Source of the DNA: Nitrospiraceae bacterium | Lineage (GTDB): Bacteria > Nitrospirota > Nitrospiria > Nitrospirales > Nitrospiraceae | Assembly (NCBI GenBank): GCA_900299325.1 | Contig: OMJK01000122.1 | Coordinates: 1-32,328 of the forward strand | Length of the DNA: 32,328 nucleotides | Direction of reading: 5' to 3' | Part shown: piece by piece, positions 2,810 to 10,762 of the stretch | Layout of the letters: every line of letters starts with the position of its first letter | How positions within the stretch are numbered: position 1 is the stretch's first letter | Made by a program: the position numbers and the translations under genes | The notes under the pieces: model-generated | What the model saw: only the letters and a program-made list of their open reading frames with translations | Told to the model about the DNA's origin: nothing | The model's database searches: none

Positions 2810-3379
2810 ATGGTACCTACGCACATGTTTTTGACGAGAGGGGTCGGCGTGCATCGCGAGAAGCTGGCGTCTTTCGAGCAGGCCTTGCGCAGCGCCGGCG
2901 TCGCGTATTGCAATCTCGTCAGCGTGTCCTCGATTCTTCCGCCGAACTGCAAAATCATTCCCCGCAAGCGCGGTGAGAAGCTCCTGAATCCCGGCGAAAT
3001 TACCCATTGCGTCATGGCGCGGTCCGAGACCAACGAGCGGAACCGCCTCGTCTCCGCCTCGATCGGACTGGCGATCCCGACCGACCGGCGGACCTACGGC
3101 TATCTGTCCGAACACCATGCGCACGGCGAGACCGACGAGGAGACGGGTGAATACACCGAGGACCTCGCGGCGCAGATGTTGGCCACGACGCTGGGCGTCG
3201 AATTCGATCCCACCGCGGCCTGGAAAGAACGGGAGCAGGTGTTCAAGATGGGCGGCAAGATCGTCCGCACCTTGAACATTACGCAATCGGCCATCGGCAA
3301 GCCCGGTAAATGGACCACGGTCGTGGCGCTGGCGGTGTTCATCCCTCTGGAGAACCTGCCGAAGCGGGCCCGCCGCTAG
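2810..3379 (+). CDS. Pyruvoyl-dependent arginine decarboxylase
   Basis: A 189-residue PvlArgDC-family protein that would convert arginine to agmatine and CO2 in the cytoplasm. Members are made as a proenzyme that cuts itself between two serines, turning the second into a pyruvoyl cofactor. The cleavage region is visible as [13 protein letters not shown], with Ser40-Ser41 the expected scissile pair. The N-terminus [17 protein letters not shown] and the GYLSEHHA segment are typical of the family. A GAGGGAAAAG stretch just precedes the ATG. The next gene encodes an agmatinase, so the pair forms a complete arginine-to-putrescine route that bypasses ornithine. Confidence 0.93.
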
Positions 3380-3437
3380 CCGGATTCCGGCGAGCGGGGG
3401 ACGGCATGACCGGTCCTCTCTTGATCAGGACACGCGC

Positions 3438-4370
3438 ATGACGCTTCCCGTCGGATGGGAAGGCCCGGACCGGAATTTTCTCGGCGTCGAGGAGCCCTGG
3501 TCCCATCCCGACCGTGCCGGCGTCTACGTGCTCCCGGCACCCTACGAGCACACTTCCAGTTACATTCTCGGATCGGATGAAGGTCCCTCCGCCATCATCG
3601 AAGCCTCCCATCAGGTCGAGTTTTACGACGAGCAACTGGGGTTCGAACCGTTCCGTGAGTGGGGCGGCATCGCGACCGCGTCGCCGCTGGATCTCCACGG
3701 CAGGGTCGATGGGGCCGCCGTCGACGCCATTGAAGCCTTCGTCGCCCCGCACGTCGGCACCGGCCGGTTTCTCGTCACGCTCACCGGCGAGCACACCGGC
3801 GCGCTCGGCGCTATTCGCGCCCATGCGAAACGGTATCCGAATCTCTGCGTCGTGCAGATCGATGCGCACGGCGATCTGCGCCAGGCCTATCAAGGCAATC
3901 CCTTCAGCCACGCCAGTGTCATGGCGCGGGTTGTGGACGCCGGGCTCCCGCTGGTGCAGGTGGGCATTCGCTCGATCTGTCCGGAGGAGATCGACCGGAT
4001 CAAGAAGTCGGACGCCATCACCACGTTTTTTGCGGCGAACATTCTGGATCCGTCCGGCCCCTACGAAGGCAAAGGTGCGCGCTGGATTCCCGATGTCGTG
4101 GCGGCGTGCCGCGGGCCGGTGTATCTGACCTTCGACTGCGACGGGTTGGATGCGTCGATCGTCCCGGCGCTGGGCACGCCGGAGCCGGGCGGGTTGGGCT
4201 GGTACGACACCCTGAACCTCGTGACCGCGTTGGCCAACGGGCCCGGCATTCTCGGCATGGACGTGAGTGAGATTGCGCCGATCGAGGGATTCGTCGCGCC
4301 GCAATTTTCCATCGCCCGGCTGATCTACCGTATTCTAGGCCGCGTCAAGGCGGGCCGCCGCGTCCATTAG
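3438..4370 (+). CDS. speB: Agmatinase (arginase/ureohydrolase family)
   Basis: A 310-residue ureohydrolase that should hydrolyse agmatine to putrescine and urea. The binuclear manganese ligands are all visible: His in LTGEHTG, the DAHGD triad in QIDAHGDLR, and the two Asp residues in TFDCDGLD; the substrate-side GTPEPGG loop and the MDVSEIAP segment follow. It lies 58 bases after the arginine decarboxylase, which argues for agmatine rather than arginine as substrate. Urea would be a by-product. Agmatinase is preferred over arginase or guanidinobutyrase on gene context; the sequence alone does not fully exclude those. Confidence 0.9.
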   Translation: MTLPVGWEGPDRNFLGVEEPWSHPDRAGVYVLPAPYEHTSSYILGSDEGPSAIIEASHQVEFYDEQLGFEPFREWGGIATASPLDLHGRVDGAAVDAIEAFVAPHVGTGRFLVTLTGEHTGALGAIRAHAKRYPNLCVVQIDAHGDLRQAYQGNPFSHASVMARVVDAGLPLVQVGIRSICPEEIDRIKKSDAITTFFAANILDPSGPYEGKGARWIPDVVAACRGPVYLTFDCDGLDASIVPALGTPEPGGLGWYDTLNLVTALANGPGILGMDVSEIAPIEGFVAPQFSIARLIYRILGRVKAGRRVH

Positions 4371-4396: not shown

Positions 4397-5152
4397 TTGG
4401 CTGACTCACCCCGTCACTCGTCATCCGTCACTCGTCACGGCGTTCCGCGCATCCGCATCAACAAGTTCTTCACGCAGCACGGCGTCTGCTCGCGCCGCGA
4501 AGCCGACCGGCTCGTCGAAACGGGCCGGGTCACGATCAACGGCCGTGTGGCCCGGCTCGGCGATCAGGTCGGTCCTGACGATGCCGTGGCGCGCGACGGC
4601 CAGGTCATTCCCTGGGGCGCGACGCCGGTCTACATCAAGTACCACAAGCCGGTGGGTGTGACGACGACCAGCGAGTCGCACGTGTACCGCAACATCATCG
4701 CCGAGATCGGACACGAGGAACGGATTTTCCCGATCGGGCGCCTCGATAAAGATTCGTCGGGCCTGATTCTCCTGACCAACGACGGCGACATCGTCAACGA
4801 CATCCTGCGCACGGAGTTCGGGCATGAGCGCGAGTACGTCGTGGATGTGGATCGCCCCTTCGACGATGCGTTTTTGGATCGACTGTCGCAAGGAGTCGAG
4901 ATTGTAGGCAGCCGGACGAAGCCCTGCCGGACCGAGCGCATGGGGCGCCAGCGGTTCCGGATCGTGCTGACGGAAGGCCGGAACCGCCAGATCCGGCGGA
5001 TGTGCCAGGCCATCGGCTATCGCGTGACGGATCTGCACCGGGTCCGGATCATGCACATTACGATTGCAGGATTGAGCGTCGGCGTCTGGAAAGATTTGAC
5101 GCACGAGGAGCGCACGACACTACTGCGGGCGGTGGGGCGGAAAGTAATTTAG
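4397..5152 (+). CDS. RluF-like 23S rRNA pseudouridine synthase
   Basis: A 251-residue RsuA/RluB/E/F-family enzyme. An S4 RNA-binding domain spans about residues 17-70 (RINKFFTQHGVCSRREADRLVETG). The catalytic domain follows, with the active Asp in FPIGRLDKDSSGL and the NRQIRRMC motif. The stretch ending VTDLHRVRIMHITIAGLSVGVWKDLT closely resembles RluF, which modifies U2604 of E. coli 23S rRNA. The start is a TTG at 4397 with AAGG upstream; no ATG lies before the S4 domain. Its stop overlaps by four bases the stop of the convergent gene. Confidence 0.88.
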   Translation: MADSPRHSSSVTRHGVPRIRINKFFTQHGVCSRREADRLVETGRVTINGRVARLGDQVGPDDAVARDGQVIPWGATPVYIKYHKPVGVTTTSESHVYRNIIAEIGHEERIFPIGRLDKDSSGLILLTNDGDIVNDILRTEFGHEREYVVDVDRPFDDAFLDRLSQGVEIVGSRTKPCRTERMGRQRFRIVLTEGRNRQIRRMCQAIGYRVTDLHRVRIMHITIAGLSVGVWKDLTHEERTTLLRAVGRKVI

Positions 5153-5931
5153 CGAACGTCGCCGGGCATCGGCGCGGGTGACGGCGCTGCGTATGCGGTC
5201 TGCGGAGCCTGATCGGAGGCCGGTTCGTCGTTCGTTTCGGGTTCCTGCCTGCTGCGGCGTTTGCCGAGAAACAGATTGAGAAAAGCGATGAAGAAGCTGC
5301 CGCCGAGGAGCAGCAGGCTGCTGAACTGAATCGTTTTGGTCCCTTCGTCGCGCATGTCTTTTGCGACGTCGGCGACCGTGTCCAGCAACCGGTCGAGCGC
5401 GAGGCTGACCTGAATCATCTTGGGGCCCGCGTTGTCCGACGCGTGCTCTTCGGCTTTCCGCCGCAGTTTATCCCGCTCCGTGACCGAGGTGGCGTTCCAC
5501 TCCTGCGTCAGCAACTGTTCGGTGGTGCTGGCGACCGAGAAATATTGGTCGAGGCTGCGCCGGACGGCTTCGATGTCTTCCGGTTCGCTGCGCCCGCTGC
5601 GGGAGACGCGCAATCCCGCGGCTGCGTACCGGTCGACGGCGTGCTGGATGCGGGCGCGCTGGGCCGGCAGCGATTCGGTGATGCGCTCATACTCTTTTTT
5701 GCTGTCCGCCTGAAGGGCCCGGATCAGCGTGTTGCGGTAGCGCATGACGTCCGCGGAGATGTGGGCCAGATCCGCCGCGCCGAGCGTGTATTCCGTGTAC
5801 ATGATCCGCAGGTCCTGGTCGATCTGGCTCAACGCCTGGCCGCTGTACCAGCCCAGTCCGGCGATCAGCAGGCTGATGAATACCTGGGTGCCCGTCGGCT
5901 TCGGGATCGGCATGCGATTCAACAGGCCCAC
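5149..5931 (-). CDS. Membrane protein with chemoreceptor-like four-helix bundle
   Basis: A 260-residue protein with two membrane helices (about residues 15-32 and 201-222) enclosing a helical, charged periplasmic region of about 165 residues. That region resembles the 4HB_MCP sensor bundle of chemoreceptors and kinases, but no HAMP, kinase or methyl-accepting domain follows; the C-terminus is a 38-residue Pro/Ala/Glu-rich cytoplasmic tail. The GTG at 5929-5931 was chosen because GGGAGGA lies directly before it; a longer frame would run into the preceding gene. It starts 11 bases after the ABC protein and is surely in its operon. A role as an accessory or sensor of that system is an inference. 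Confidence 0.72.
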   Translation of the reverse strand: MGLLNRMPIPKPTGTQVFISLLIAGLGWYSGQALSQIDQDLRIMYTEYTLGAADLAHISADVMRYRNTLIRALQADSKKEYERITESLPAQRARIQHAVDRYAAAGLRVSRSGRSEPEDIEAVRRSLDQYFSVASTTEQLLTQEWNATSVTERDKLRRKAEEHASDNAGPKMIQVSLALDRLLDTVADVAKDMRDEGTKTIQFSSLLLLGGSFFIAFLNLFLGKRRSRQEPETNDEPASDQAPQTAYAAPSPAPMPGDVR

Positions 5932-5942
5932 GCGGTCCTCCC

Positions 5943-7610
5943 TTATTCCAGAATAATCCGGCGATCCACGTGCGGCGTCAGGTTCGGGTCGTTCGACACG
6001 AAGACCGTCGACCACGGTTCGTCTTTGCTGCAGAGACGCCGCAGAATGGTTTCCCGCATGGCGGGCGGCAGGTTATGGAGAATGCCGTCGAAAATCAACA
6101 GCTGCGGCCGTGCCAGAATCGCCCGGGCCAGCAGAATGCGCATGATGTGCGTGGGAGCGAGGATGCGGTCCGGCGCCCGTACGTGCGTTTTGATGCCCTG
6201 CGGCATCGCATCGACTTCCTCTTCGAGCTCGGTGAACCGGAGCGCCCACCGGATGTCGGCGTAGGGCACGTACGACCGGCCCAGCACGATGTTGTCCTCG
6301 ATCGTGCCCTCGAACAGCGCGAGTTGCGAGTCGAGCATGAACCCGCGCCAGCGGTTGATGGTATCGAGGTTCAGGTGCCGGAGGTCCACGCCGTTGTACC
6401 GGATGACGCCCGCCGTCGGGGCTTCGAGGCCCGCCAGCACCCGGGCCAGCGCCGTTTTGGCCGCTGTTGTGCTGGCGTAGATGCCGATCTTTTCTCCGGG
6501 CGTAATCTCCAGATCGAAATGCTGAAAGATCGGCGGGGCGTCGCCGCGGGCCACCGTCAGGTCCTTGCAGGTCAGGCGGATGCCGTGAATCATTGGGTCG
6601 GGCAGCTGGACGGACAGCTGGGCCGACTGCTGATCTTTCGGCAGAGAGAAGAACTCGTTGAGTTCCGCCAGGGCGGTCAAAAAGTAGTAGACGTGCCCCA
6701 TCTTTTTCACGACGGCGTCGAAGTTGAGCAGCAGGTTGCTCACGACGACCTCCGCGGCGACCAATTGCCCGATCGTCAGCTGGCCGATCGACAGGAGCCA
6801 GCCGGCCGTCGCCAGCACGCCGCTGTGGGCGATCGCCTGCCAGCCGACCGAGCCCAGATACTGCTGGAAGAGAATACCGAACCGCTCGCGGCGCGTTTCG
6901 ACGTAGCGGTCGACCAGCTCGTCGGTCTTGCGCATCAACAGCGGCTGGCTGTCGGTCGCTTTGAAGTGCAGCAGGTTGTAGGAGATTTCCTGGATCCAGT
7001 GCAGGACCGAGTATTTGGCCTGCGACATCTCGATCGTGGTCCGGAGGCCGCCGTGGGACAGCATGAAGAAGATGACGTTGAAACCGGCCAGGAGCAGCGC
7101 GTCGAAGAGGAGAAAGTACGGATGATAAAACACGAGAATCGTCATGCCCACCGCGCCGCCGACGACGACGTTGATCAGGTCGACGAGCAGCACGGAGAGG
7201 GCGCGCTGCATCAGGACCGTTTCCATGAAATAGTTCGCAAACCGGGGCTTGAACCGCTGGAACTGGAAATGGGGGAGCTGCTGCGTCATGGCGATGGTGA
7301 CCCGGGCGAACAACCGCCGCTCGAGCACCTCGACGGCATAGTATTGCAGGGCTTTGAACGCGCCGACGAACCCCAGCGCGATGACCATGATGCCGGCCAG
7401 GGTGACGATGGTGATGGGCTGAATGGCGAACGCGAACGTGTTGACCAGTTCCTGGACGGTCAGCGGGACGATCAGGGAGAACAGTCCGATGGCGAGCGAG
7501 TACGAGAAGATCAGCGCCAGCACTCGGCGTTCCAGGCGGAAGAGGAGCCCGAGATGGCCCAACATCGCCGAGAACAGATGGGGCTGCTGCTCAGGAGGGT
7601 CCTGTGCCAT
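5943..7610 (-). CDS. ABC exporter-like protein with degenerate ATPase domain
   Basis: A 555-residue fusion of an exporter membrane domain (residues about 1-330, with several hydrophobic segments starting near 30) and a nucleotide-binding domain (about 345-555). The frame is intact and the fold is easily aligned, yet nearly every catalytic motif is altered. Walker A reads YASTTAAKTA (Lys385 kept, all three glycines lost). The signature LSGGQ is replaced by LAPTH. Walker B is LLIFDGI, with Asp508 kept and the catalytic Glu replaced by Gly509. The switch His is replaced by Asn in FVSNDP. It lies between a TolC-like gene and a helical-bundle gene, after an HlyD-like gene. It is probably a non-hydrolysing relative of type I secretion exporters; its transport activity is uncertain. 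Confidence 0.85.
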   Translation of the reverse strand: MAQDPPEQQPHLFSAMLGHLGLLFRLERRVLALIFSYSLAIGLFSLIVPLTVQELVNTFAFAIQPITIVTLAGIMVIALGFVGAFKALQYYAVEVLERRLFARVTIAMTQQLPHFQFQRFKPRFANYFMETVLMQRALSVLLVDLINVVVGGAVGMTILVFYHPYFLLFDALLLAGFNVIFFMLSHGGLRTTIEMSQAKYSVLHWIQEISYNLLHFKATDSQPLLMRKTDELVDRYVETRRERFGILFQQYLGSVGWQAIAHSGVLATAGWLLSIGQLTIGQLVAAEVVVSNLLLNFDAVVKKMGHVYYFLTALAELNEFFSLPKDQQSAQLSVQLPDPMIHGIRLTCKDLTVARGDAPPIFQHFDLEITPGEKIGIYASTTAAKTALARVLAGLEAPTAGVIRYNGVDLRHLNLDTINRWRGFMLDSQLALFEGTIEDNIVLGRSYVPYADIRWALRFTELEEEVDAMPQGIKTHVRAPDRILAPTHIMRILLARAILARPQLLIFDGILHNLPPAMRETILRRLCSKDEPWSTVFVSNDPNLTPHVDRRIILE

Positions 7611-7723: not shown

Positions 7724-9208
7724 TTAGTCGCGGGCCCGGTAATTGACCGGCACCGCGCTGGGACTGCTTTTCGCCCAGGCGCCGATCGCCCACTGATAGA
7801 GCGCCAGAGCTTTGTGGTAATCGGCTTTGGCGCGGATGACCTGGTTTTCCGAGTCGACCGTGTTCCGTTCTCTGAGATTCACGAACAGCACGCTTGTGGC
7901 GCCCAGGCCGAACCGGAACCGTTCGCCGTCCTCCAGCGTCTTGGCCAGTCGCAGCGACTGCACGGCCACTTCCACCCGCTCCTTCGCCCGCTCGATGGCC
8001 GACAAGGCATTGTCGACGTCGACGACGACCTGCTGCTCGCGGAACTTCTGTACCATCACCAGGCGGTCCGCCTGCGCCTGCGCTTCCAGCACTTCGCCGC
8101 GGCTCTTGCGCTGCAGAATGGGAACCCGCAGTTCCAGGCCGAACCGGTAGCCCAGGCCGAGGACGAATTTCTCCGGCGCCCGGGCCGGCGCCGCTTCGGC
8201 GTCGAGACTGGGAAGCAGATTATTTTTGGCCAGAGCCAGGTCGATGTTATTGATCTTCGCTTCGATGTCGATTTCCTTGATCTCCGGCCGCTCCTGCTTG
8301 GCCTGCAGCTTGTGCGCCGTGACTGTTTCGACGGTCGGCACCAGCACCTGGCCTGGAAAGTCCGGCATCCGGTCCATGGACGGCATCGTCGGGGTCCCCT
8401 GATCCCAGAGGAACATCGAGAGCTTGAACTGCTCCTGCTCCACGGTGCGCTGGGCGGCGATGGCGACTTCGCGGCGCCGCTGCACTTCCTGGTTGGCTTC
8501 GACGACATCAAGCGGGGCGATGGCGCCGGCCTTCGAACGGCCTTCGACCTGACCGAGCCGGTCCTCGGCCACTTTGAGCGCCCGGCGTTGCACGTCCAGC
8601 AGTTTGCCGGCTGCGACCCAGTCCCAGAATTGCGCTGCGCTGGCGAGGAACAGGTCCTGCCGGGTCTGCGCGATCTTGACGTCGGCGCGGGGATCGGCCA
8701 GCTCCGACCGTTGCAACTCGGCATTTTCCGGGTTCATCAGCAGGCCTTTGAGCAACGGCATCGATCCGCCGAGCAGCCACTGGCCGTTGCCATTGTTGAA
8801 GGACAAGTCGGGAATCTTGGCGGGGCCGTTAATTACTTCCCGGATACCTGCGGCGCCCTTGAATCCCCAGGGGTGACGCGCTTCGATGAGCGTGTCGTTG
8901 AATCCTTTTGTTTGCGTGCCGGCGGCGGGATTGGTGCTCGAAATGAAGCGCTCCACCTCGGTATCGTTCACCAGCACGGGCTCGAACGCGCCTAAAGCTT
9001 TGAGCATTTTCCCGCGGGCCATGGCTTTGTCGGTGCCGGCCCCTTTCAAGAGCGGATGGGAACGGTCGATCCAGGCCTGGATTTCGTCCAGGCTCAGTTG
9101 GATGGCCGGCAGCGGTTTGGACGCGGGAGGATCCGCCGGCGCGGCGGCCAGCGCAGCGGCCGGCCACCAGGCCAGCCAGGCGACAACGCACAGTCTCAAC
9201 ACGTTCAT
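7724..9208 (-). CDS. TolC-family outer membrane efflux protein
   Basis: A 494-residue protein with a signal peptide (MNVLRLCVVAWLAWWPAAALA) and the long heptad-rich helices of the TolC/OEP family. In its second half, segments such as KINNIDLALAKNNLLPSLDAEA and LGYRFGLELRVPIL match the strand-helix repeats that form the barrel and periplasmic tunnel. It would form the outer membrane channel for the HlyD-like adaptor encoded just upstream. AAGGAG lies eight bases before the ATG. It is separated from its neighbours on both sides by about 115 bases. Confidence 0.88.
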   Translation of the reverse strand: MNVLRLCVVAWLAWWPAAALAAAPADPPASKPLPAIQLSLDEIQAWIDRSHPLLKGAGTDKAMARGKMLKALGAFEPVLVNDTEVERFISSTNPAAGTQTKGFNDTLIEARHPWGFKGAAGIREVINGPAKIPDLSFNNGNGQWLLGGSMPLLKGLLMNPENAELQRSELADPRADVKIAQTRQDLFLASAAQFWDWVAAGKLLDVQRRALKVAEDRLGQVEGRSKAGAIAPLDVVEANQEVQRRREVAIAAQRTVEQEQFKLSMFLWDQGTPTMPSMDRMPDFPGQVLVPTVETVTAHKLQAKQERPEIKEIDIEAKINNIDLALAKNNLLPSLDAEAAPARAPEKFVLGLGYRFGLELRVPILQRKSRGEVLEAQAQADRLVMVQKFREQQVVVDVDNALSAIERAKERVEVAVQSLRLAKTLEDGERFRFGLGATSVLFVNLRERNTVDSENQVIRAKADYHKALALYQWAIGAWAKSSPSAVPVNYRARD

Positions 9209-9325: not shown

Positions 9326-10762
9326 TTACTTCGCACCTCGTCCTGCTTTAGGCAAGATCGTGTCGATCAGGCTCGGCGGCCGATCCTGATAATCGGGGGG
9401 GAAGAGATTGAAGCGCCGCCACAGTTCGTACCAGAGCGGCACCCGGTTGAGAATGACCCAGCCCATCGCTTTCGTGCCCTGTCGCACGTGGGCCTGTTCG
9501 GGCCAGGGACGGTCTTCAAGGTCCGGCACGACCCAGAAACGGAAATTGCCCTTGCCGTCGTCCACCTGGTCGATCACTTTGATCACGCCGGTGTACGTGC
9601 CGGCCATCAGTTCGGGCCAGGCCGGAAGCGGAATCGCCGGAATGCCGTAGAAGAGAATTTTTACCTTCCGGCCGACGTTGAGCAGCGGGGCGTCCAGTCC
9701 GTCCGCCGTCATTTCGATTGCCTTGTCCATGCTCAAGGGAGAGAGGCGAACGATCTTGTCGCCCTGGCGGACGGTTTCTCCGGCGCCGGCTTCGGCCATC
9801 TTGACGACGGTGCCATCGATGGGGGCCAGAATGCGGCTGGCGATGCGCCGTTGCTCGGCATTCGATTGGCGCAAGCTTACGTCGGCCAGCTGATCGCTGG
9901 CTTTGGCGGCTTCAGCGACGGAGGCGTCGCGGGCCGCGTCGGCATCCAACAGCCGCTGGAGGACTTCGGCGTTGACCTGTTCGCGGCCGAAGCTCAAGGC
10001 CTTCATCGCCTGCTCGGCGGCTTTCAAGTTGGCCTGGGCTCCCTGAAGGTCGGCTTTGGTCGCGATGGCAGCTTGAATCGTCAGTTCCAATTCACGTTGG
10101 GACACGAGCCCCTGCTCGGCCAGTTGTTTGTGCCGGTCGACGTTGAGTTCAGCGGTGGCGACGGCGATTTTCGCGGCCTCTACTTTCTGATGCGCTTCCC
10201 GGACTTTGTTCTCGGCTTCGACGACCCGGGCTTGCGCAGAGGGTACGGCCGCTTTAACGAGGTTCTGCATTTCCTGGATGCGCTTGTCCAACTGTTCGGC
10301 GCGGGCCAGCGCCGCTTTGCGCGTCTGCTCCAGCGCCTTTTTCCGTTGTTCCAGGAACGTCAGCAACTCCGGGGACATGAAATTGGGGTCGTAGTCATCC
10401 AGTTCGAGAATCAGGTCGCCTTGTTTGACGCGCACGCCTTCGAAGACGTGCCATTTCTTGATGCGGCCGGTAATCTGCGATTCGATGTCCTGCGGCCGCT
10501 CGTACGGCGTATAGGCCGAGAGCTGGCCAGTGACGGTGATGGTTTGGGTCCAGGGGACGAAGGCTACGATCAGCAAAAACAAGAGAATGAGCTTGAGCGC
10601 AAGCTTGGAGGAAAACTTGAGGCGTTCCGGGATTTCGACGGCTTCCCAGGATTGGAGTTTGGCCGAGGTGGCCAGATCGTCAACGGAGATTTCGTCCAGC
10701 CCGGTTTCCTGGCGCACCAGCGACCGGACTTTGTTGCGGATCCCCAGATCCAGACGGGCCAC
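9326..10762 (-). CDS. HlyD-family membrane fusion protein
   Basis: A 478-residue periplasmic adaptor. It has a short cytoplasmic N-terminus (about 50 residues), one membrane helix at about 54-71, a biotinyl-lipoyl half-motif around 100-123 (KKWHVFEGVRVKQGDLIL), a long coiled coil to about residue 300, a second lipoyl half (ILAPIDGTVVKMA) and a beta-barrel region. This order is typical of type I secretion adaptors bridging an inner membrane ABC exporter and TolC. The start is GTG (10760-10762) with AAGGAG upstream. It is the first gene of the minus-strand operon and has a good promoter upstream. Confidence 0.9.
   Translation of the reverse strand: MARLDLGIRNKVRSLVRQETGLDEISVDDLATSAKLQSWEAVEIPERLKFSSKLALKLILLFLLIVAFVPWTQTITVTGQLSAYTPYERPQDIESQITGRIKKWHVFEGVRVKQGDLILELDDYDPNFMSPELLTFLEQRKKALEQTRKAALARAEQLDKRIQEMQNLVKAAVPSAQARVVEAENKVREAHQKVEAAKIAVATAELNVDRHKQLAEQGLVSQRELELTIQAAIATKADLQGAQANLKAAEQAMKALSFGREQVNAEVLQRLLDADAARDASVAEAAKASDQLADVSLRQSNAEQRRIASRILAPIDGTVVKMAEAGAGETVRQGDKIVRLSPLSMDKAIEMTADGLDAPLLNVGRKVKILFYGIPAIPLPAWPELMAGTYTGVIKVIDQVDDGKGNFRFWVVPDLEDRPWPEQAHVRQGTKAMGWVILNRVPLWYELWRRFNLFPPDYQDRPPSLIDTILPKAGRGAK

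Follow-up and report, generated by a model that had tools for sequence, protein, structure and literature searches.

The window analysed here, a stretch of 32,328 nucleotides from a Nitrospira genome, encodes an ABC exporter that has kept its fold and lost the motifs of an ATPase, and that, judging from its sequence, would carry out no conventional ATP hydrolysis. Because the ATPase parts were lost while the protein remained under selection, and the nucleotide-binding domain (NBD) was dropped in several lineages, some other mode of working or source of power is required for this pump-like machine. We consider it fairly probable (roughly 0.58) that a type-I-secretion-like ABC exporter now serves HlyD and TolC as an inner-membrane partner independent of ATP, with the NBD kept as a docking piece. 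Open-licence papers yielded no account of the family, in either Nitrospira or Bacteroidota.

The gene, its motifs and its operon

The exporter gene belongs to a minus-strand operon with the order HlyD, TolC, ABC exporter and 4HB protein. The features of the operon and of the exporter are as follows.

10762..9326, minus strand: HlyD-like membrane fusion protein, with which the operon begins (Pfam HlyD_3, TIGR01843; conserved neighbour)
9208..7724, minus strand: TolC-like outer-membrane factor (Pfam OEP, 3.8e-35; conserved neighbour)
7610..5943 including the stop codon, minus strand: pseudo-ATPase ABC exporter (pseudo-ABC), a transmembrane domain (TMD) plus a degenerate NBD, 555 amino acids
6606..7610, minus strand: TMD, residues 1-335 (AlphaFold2 model; TMD-only relatives stop at the same boundary)
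7449..7451, minus strand: Glu54 in TM1, invariant among Nitrospirales homologues
5946..6605, minus strand: degenerate NBD, residues 336-555 (Pfam ABC_tran at 363-508; AlphaFold2 model)
6450..6479, minus strand: former Walker A, YASTTAAKTA, residues 378-387
6147..6161, minus strand: former ABC signature, LAPTH in place of LSGGQ, residues 484-488
6075..6089, minus strand: Walker B Asp508, Gly509 in place of the catalytic Glu, and the new invariant His512
5988..5993, minus strand: Asn540 in place of the switch His, followed by the new invariant Asp541
About 5913..5149, minus strand: two-TM membrane protein of the 4HB_MCP/TarH type that lacks an output domain and closes the operon

The original prediction had described an intact exporter with degenerate motifs, and reading of the ORF, which starts with ATG and contains no internal stop over its 555 codons, confirmed the four replacements (YASTTAAKTA, LAPTH, Gly509 and Asn540). 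The D-loop and the A-loop aromatic residue are also missing, and Lys385 of Walker A and Asp508 of Walker B are retained. The claim that the membrane domain and the NBD fold are both kept was likewise borne out: Pfam ABC_tran was still detected (37 bits against a gathering cut-off of 25), and the AlphaFold2 model (pLDDT 86.9) showed a complete type IV exporter fold, NBD included, its TMD consisting of the elbow helix, six long helices and the coupling-helix region. The closest PDB structure was ATP-bound HlyB (8dck_A; Z 29.2, 2.3 Å over 535 residues).

The protein thus resembles the transporters of type I secretion systems (T1SS; the HlyB, PrtD and LssB families) in its exporter fold, and further in its HlyD-like and TolC-like operon partners and in an ancestry common with canonical ABC-HlyD-TolC loci. 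However, it lacks the catalytic Glu, the signature, the switch His and the Walker A glycines, and so falls outside the definition of these transporters as ATPases. It also lacks an N-terminal C39-like domain, and all its NCBIfam scores were far below the cut-offs (best TIGR03796, 130 against 853 bits), including those of every T1SS family (84-112 bits against 510-726 for TIGR01846, TIGR03375 and TIGR01842). No cargo gene was recognised beside the exporter within the operon.

The ordered operon proposed originally was supported by the Pfam and TIGR matches of both partner genes and by their conservation as neighbours in relatives, and gene content shows HlyD and TolC to be the stable partners of the pseudo-ABC protein. 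Divergent purE and purK genes are found upstream of HlyD, and most relatives share this neighbourhood. The 4HB protein, whose start we placed at an ATG within a GTG ORF beginning at 6015, contains a periplasmic, sensor-like module and is a conserved downstream neighbour in the same operon context. Near the operon, on the plus strand (2810-4370), sequence reading indicated two ORFs for a putative pyruvoyl-dependent arginine decarboxylase and a putative agmatinase.

Conservation and selection in Nitrospirales

Homologues of the pseudo-ABC gene were present in 66 of 99 near relatives and, across the phylum, in 116 of 396 genomes; the matches listed all came from genomes that share the genus, family or order of the window. 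Of 120 full-length Nitrospirales homologues, none had the first Walker A glycine, the catalytic Glu or the switch His, and 119 had Gly at the site of the catalytic Glu. Since every Nitrospirales homologue examined is in this same state, the motif loss lies far beyond chance. By contrast, the replacement residues His512 and Asp541 were each invariant (120/120), as was Glu54 (120/120), where canonical relatives have Ala, Thr or Val. Walker A has been eroded variously: deep branches keep GKT, the clade of the window has AKT, and ARM, SQRL or TGH occur elsewhere.

We compared substitution rates among 38 pairs, limited to dS below about 1.3 since dS was near saturation for many pairs, and obtained median dN/dS values of 0.099 for the TMD, 0.109 for the NBD, 0.063 for HlyD, 0.063 for TolC and 0.090 for the 4HB protein. 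The exporter was originally taken to be a selected pseudo-ATPase, a reading that canonical motifs in related genomes or relaxed selection would have turned into decay. None of the Nitrospira or order-level homologues carried canonical motifs, and both domains evolve at a dN/dS of about 0.1, near the values of their operon partners, so that selection is not relaxed. A decaying pseudogene would account for the loss of all catalytic motifs, and a few broken copies do exist: in L175 (3619-4662 in operon-strand coordinates) the first of two tandem genes is frameshifted at the start of the NBD, leaving only the TMD in frame, and one TAA interrupts a copy in L042. Nevertheless, family-wide conservation, intact frames, low dN/dS and new invariant residues leave this explanation practically no room. 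Sequencing error was rejected as well, on the grounds of this conservation, the low dN/dS and intact copies in isolates, among them N. moscoviensis (L081), whose orthologue is 84% identical.

We then examined which part of the NBD is conserved. In the Nitrospirales family, ATP-contact columns had a mean entropy of 1.42 bits, compared with 1.20 for other NBD columns, and were the least conserved class, whereas in 13 canonical relatives they were the most conserved (0.52 bits compared with 1.22 elsewhere in the NBD); the argument rests on this ranking within each group and not on the absolute values, as the canonical relatives are few and differ in their phylogenetic make-up. Because the columns that are most conserved in canonical relatives are the most variable here, ATP binding is no longer the selected trait. 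Outside the ATP contacts, the NBD of the Nitrospirales family is as conserved as the TMD. These patterns indicate that the NBD is maintained by selection, but not for ATP.

Ancestry and loss of the ATPase domain

In a tree built from the TMD only, all Nitrospirales members formed one clade (support 100) on a stem of about 2 changes per site, outside which lay the canonical ABC-HlyD-TolC systems found in Obscuribacterales, Acidobacteria, Methylomonas and Myxococcota. Canonical relatives occurred only in other phyla, at 30-34% identity, and share the partners HlyD (35-39%) and TolC; the whole system was therefore inherited together and the ATPase lost in place. The protein thus goes back to an exporter of the ABC type that was powered by ATP and served HlyD and TolC in a type-I-secretion-like manner. 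The sequences show that the Nitrospirales ancestor lost the catalytic Glu, the switch His, the signature and the first Walker A glycine, and that purifying selection has acted on the protein ever since, the ATP pocket drifting while the remainder of the NBD was conserved. Later, the NBD disappeared completely from one Nitrospirales sub-lineage and, in a separate event, from Bacteroidota; HlyD and TolC were kept every time, in one case with HlyD fused to the TMD.

The Nitrospirales sub-lineage is represented by three order-level relatives (L056-L058) whose genes encode the TMD only (337-346 amino acids, with a clean end at the linker) and are still accompanied by HlyD and TolC. No separate NBD gene of this kind was found elsewhere in these genomes, which are 95-100% complete; a split NBD gene was rejected as a candidate, since the ABC NBDs detected were all of the ordinary kind, with identities of ≤35%. 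These TMD-only genes had a higher dN/dS (0.23-0.30), and the branch could be under relaxing selection.

A TMD-only protein of about 334-341 amino acids was also found in 16 Bacteroidota genomes, encoded directly upstream of HlyD, and TolC came next after HlyD wherever the flank was long enough to see. Six Bacteroidota genomes (L336-L341) carried a TMD-HlyD fusion in a single ORF of 752-784 amino acids, in which the membrane domain runs straight into HlyD and no ATPase is present. A single clade of the Nitrospirales and Bacteroidota stand-alone TMD-only proteins was rejected by the AU test (p about 1e-74), and the NBD was accordingly lost at least twice. Other Bacteroidota homologues within ABC-HlyD-TolC loci (L236-L295 and L300-L315) mostly keep Walker A and lack the signature, the catalytic Glu and the switch His, which from their sequences appears to be a second, partial kind of degeneration. 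The phylum of these genomes was inferred from the search centre (L098 and L099 being Bacteroidota records).

The exporter fold was preserved in the model of a TMD-only protein (Z 26.7 to TmrAB and 26.2 to HlyB), which lacks TM0 and has an elbow helix at residues 12-21 and coupling helices at 113-116 and 213-217; SbmA was absent from the profile matches in the PDB and from the matches listed for this model. A coarse search for a proton-relay residue common to all ATP-less lineages found none, Glu54 being confined to Nitrospirales. Taken at the level of sequence, these lineages show that the family can dispense with the NBD.

Possible modes of action

Since HlyD and TolC were retained where the NBD was lost, we infer that the membrane domain would be the working inner-membrane partner of the HlyD-TolC conduit, with no need of ATP hydrolysis. 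The remaining NBD may sit on the coupling helices and serve there as a structural cap or for docking. With less certainty, an ion gradient may, as in SbmA, drive alternating access and so move the substrate, or the substrate may pass through a ligand-gated conduit; by analogy, ion-gradient coupling of the SbmA type would be the simplest way to keep transport. SecA_DEAD ATPase loci near HlyD-like genes have been reported in Nitrospirae (PMC4452313), and we dismissed this ATPase as an alternative motor because those loci lack ABC homologues and represent a different system.

The closest precedent for an ABC exporter membrane domain freed from ATPase dependence is SbmA/BacA. Transport by these proteins (SLiPT) is proton-driven and involves a glutamate ladder. 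SbmA, an ABC-fold transporter, arose by NBD loss and is driven by protons, and SLiPT proteins possess an extra TM0 domain and have lost the elbow and coupling helices (PMC13316013). The pseudo-ABC family is an independent lineage that has, in contrast, kept the elbow and coupling helices, has no TM0 and is found beside HlyD and TolC, which SbmA/BacA lacks. Moreover, SLiPT proteins have no NBD, whereas the window protein and most Nitrospirales members carry a degenerate one, although NBD-less relatives exist. On the proposed reading, the system would also resemble EmrAB-TolC and other ion-driven tripartite pumps, in which a HlyD-type adaptor and TolC serve an ATP-free inner-membrane transporter; EmrB, however, is an MFS protein and not an ABC exporter fold.

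The main rival is that the protein transports nothing, and instead senses a membrane or periplasmic ligand and signals, or just holds the HlyD-TolC assembly. In a paralogue clade (B; L042, L043, L167, L169, L176, L177, L178 and L183), genes for a PAS histidine kinase with two TM helices and for an NtrC-type regulator come after the pseudo-ABC gene at 8/8 loci, and HlyD and TolC are absent from the vicinity; this context suggests a sensory use, and also suggests that some family members do not transport. In the window, the next gene after the pseudo-ABC gene encodes a 4HB_MCP-type protein, whose fold is sensory, and signalling by ABC transporters through intramembrane-sensing kinases is known (PMC3023708, PMC7828314). 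BceAB-type transporters, for instance, do the sensing for histidine kinases whose loops are short. The co-encoded kinase and response regulator of clade B recall such Bce modules, which nevertheless have another ABC fold, an active ATPase and another class of regulator, and their arrangement differs from that of the window, whose operon has no histidine kinase or response regulator, these being present only with clade B. Homology between the 4HB protein and the clade B histidine kinase was rejected, the similarity being no better than chance. Because the window and most loci have full HlyD and TolC partners, because the TMD is fused to HlyD in some Bacteroidota, all of which points to a conduit, and because the 4HB protein is missing from sister clades with three TolC genes, we regard a sensor or scaffold as rather unlikely for the window protein.

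It is still less probable that the NBDs bind ATP and dimerize without hydrolysis to open or close a gate. The protein could bind nucleotide weakly, since the Walker A Lys385 persists in 98/120 and the Walker B Asp508 in 107/120 full-length Nitrospirales homologues, and such a switch is plausible in the Bacteroidota homologues that keep Walker A despite losing the signature, Glu and His. In Nitrospirales, however, the ATP contacts are the most variable class of NBD columns, the Walker A Lys is gone too in some clades, and the whole NBD in some lineages; the original suggestion that the protein may bind but not split ATP is weakened accordingly. Very improbable, in our estimate, is a dead half of a heterodimer whose canonical ABC half-transporter is encoded elsewhere. 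There are many heterodimers in which one site is degenerate (TmrAB, BmrCD and MsRv1273c/72c; PMC12038006); they and TM287/288 likewise carry degenerate nucleotide motifs in an intact exporter, and two pseudo-ABC genes are adjacent in some genera (L166, L168, L170, L171, L172 and L187). In those heterodimers, though, one of the two sites stays active, whereas both adjacent copies here are degenerate. A profile search of five complete or near-complete genomes for the second, canonical ATPase partner envisaged originally found only degenerate full-length family members, and the canonical exporters of these genomes matched only from about residue 222 onward.

If the ATP-independent partner of HlyD and TolC is the correct reading, the family may tentatively be regarded as a further energetic class of tripartite exporter, with an ABC fold that is ATP-free (probably ion-driven) and works through HlyD and TolC; we rate this wider proposal somewhat below even odds. 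Such a class would have arisen at least twice, in Nitrospirales and Bacteroidota, by stepwise ATPase loss, with active, Walker-A-only, motif-less, NBD-less and HlyD-fused stages surviving, so that every evolutionary stage would be available for comparison. Cycling driven by ATP is what defines ABC transporters, with SbmA/BacA as the recognised exception that has an ABC exporter fold. The present family would be a second, widespread and convergent ATP-free case in two phyla, including nitrifiers important to the nitrogen cycle. It opens to test how an ABC exporter becomes uncoupled from ATP, what coupling helices do without an NBD, and whether an ATP-free ABC fold is able to serve HlyD-TolC. 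The annotation 'type I secretion ATPase' would be wrong for the whole family.

Operon composition varies further among Nitrospirales relatives. Members of another paralogue clade (C; L045, L047, L048, L055, L059, L060 and L174) lie with a Na+/H+ exchanger and with GT2 and PMT-type glycosyltransferases. In one large Nitrospira clade, the operon consists of three TolC genes, the pseudo-ABC gene and HlyD, adjoining purEK. Two or three tandem, diverged TolC-like genes before the pseudo-ABC and HlyD genes were observed in a Nitrospira clade (L034-L041, L062-L067, L069, L070, L193, L202 and L204).
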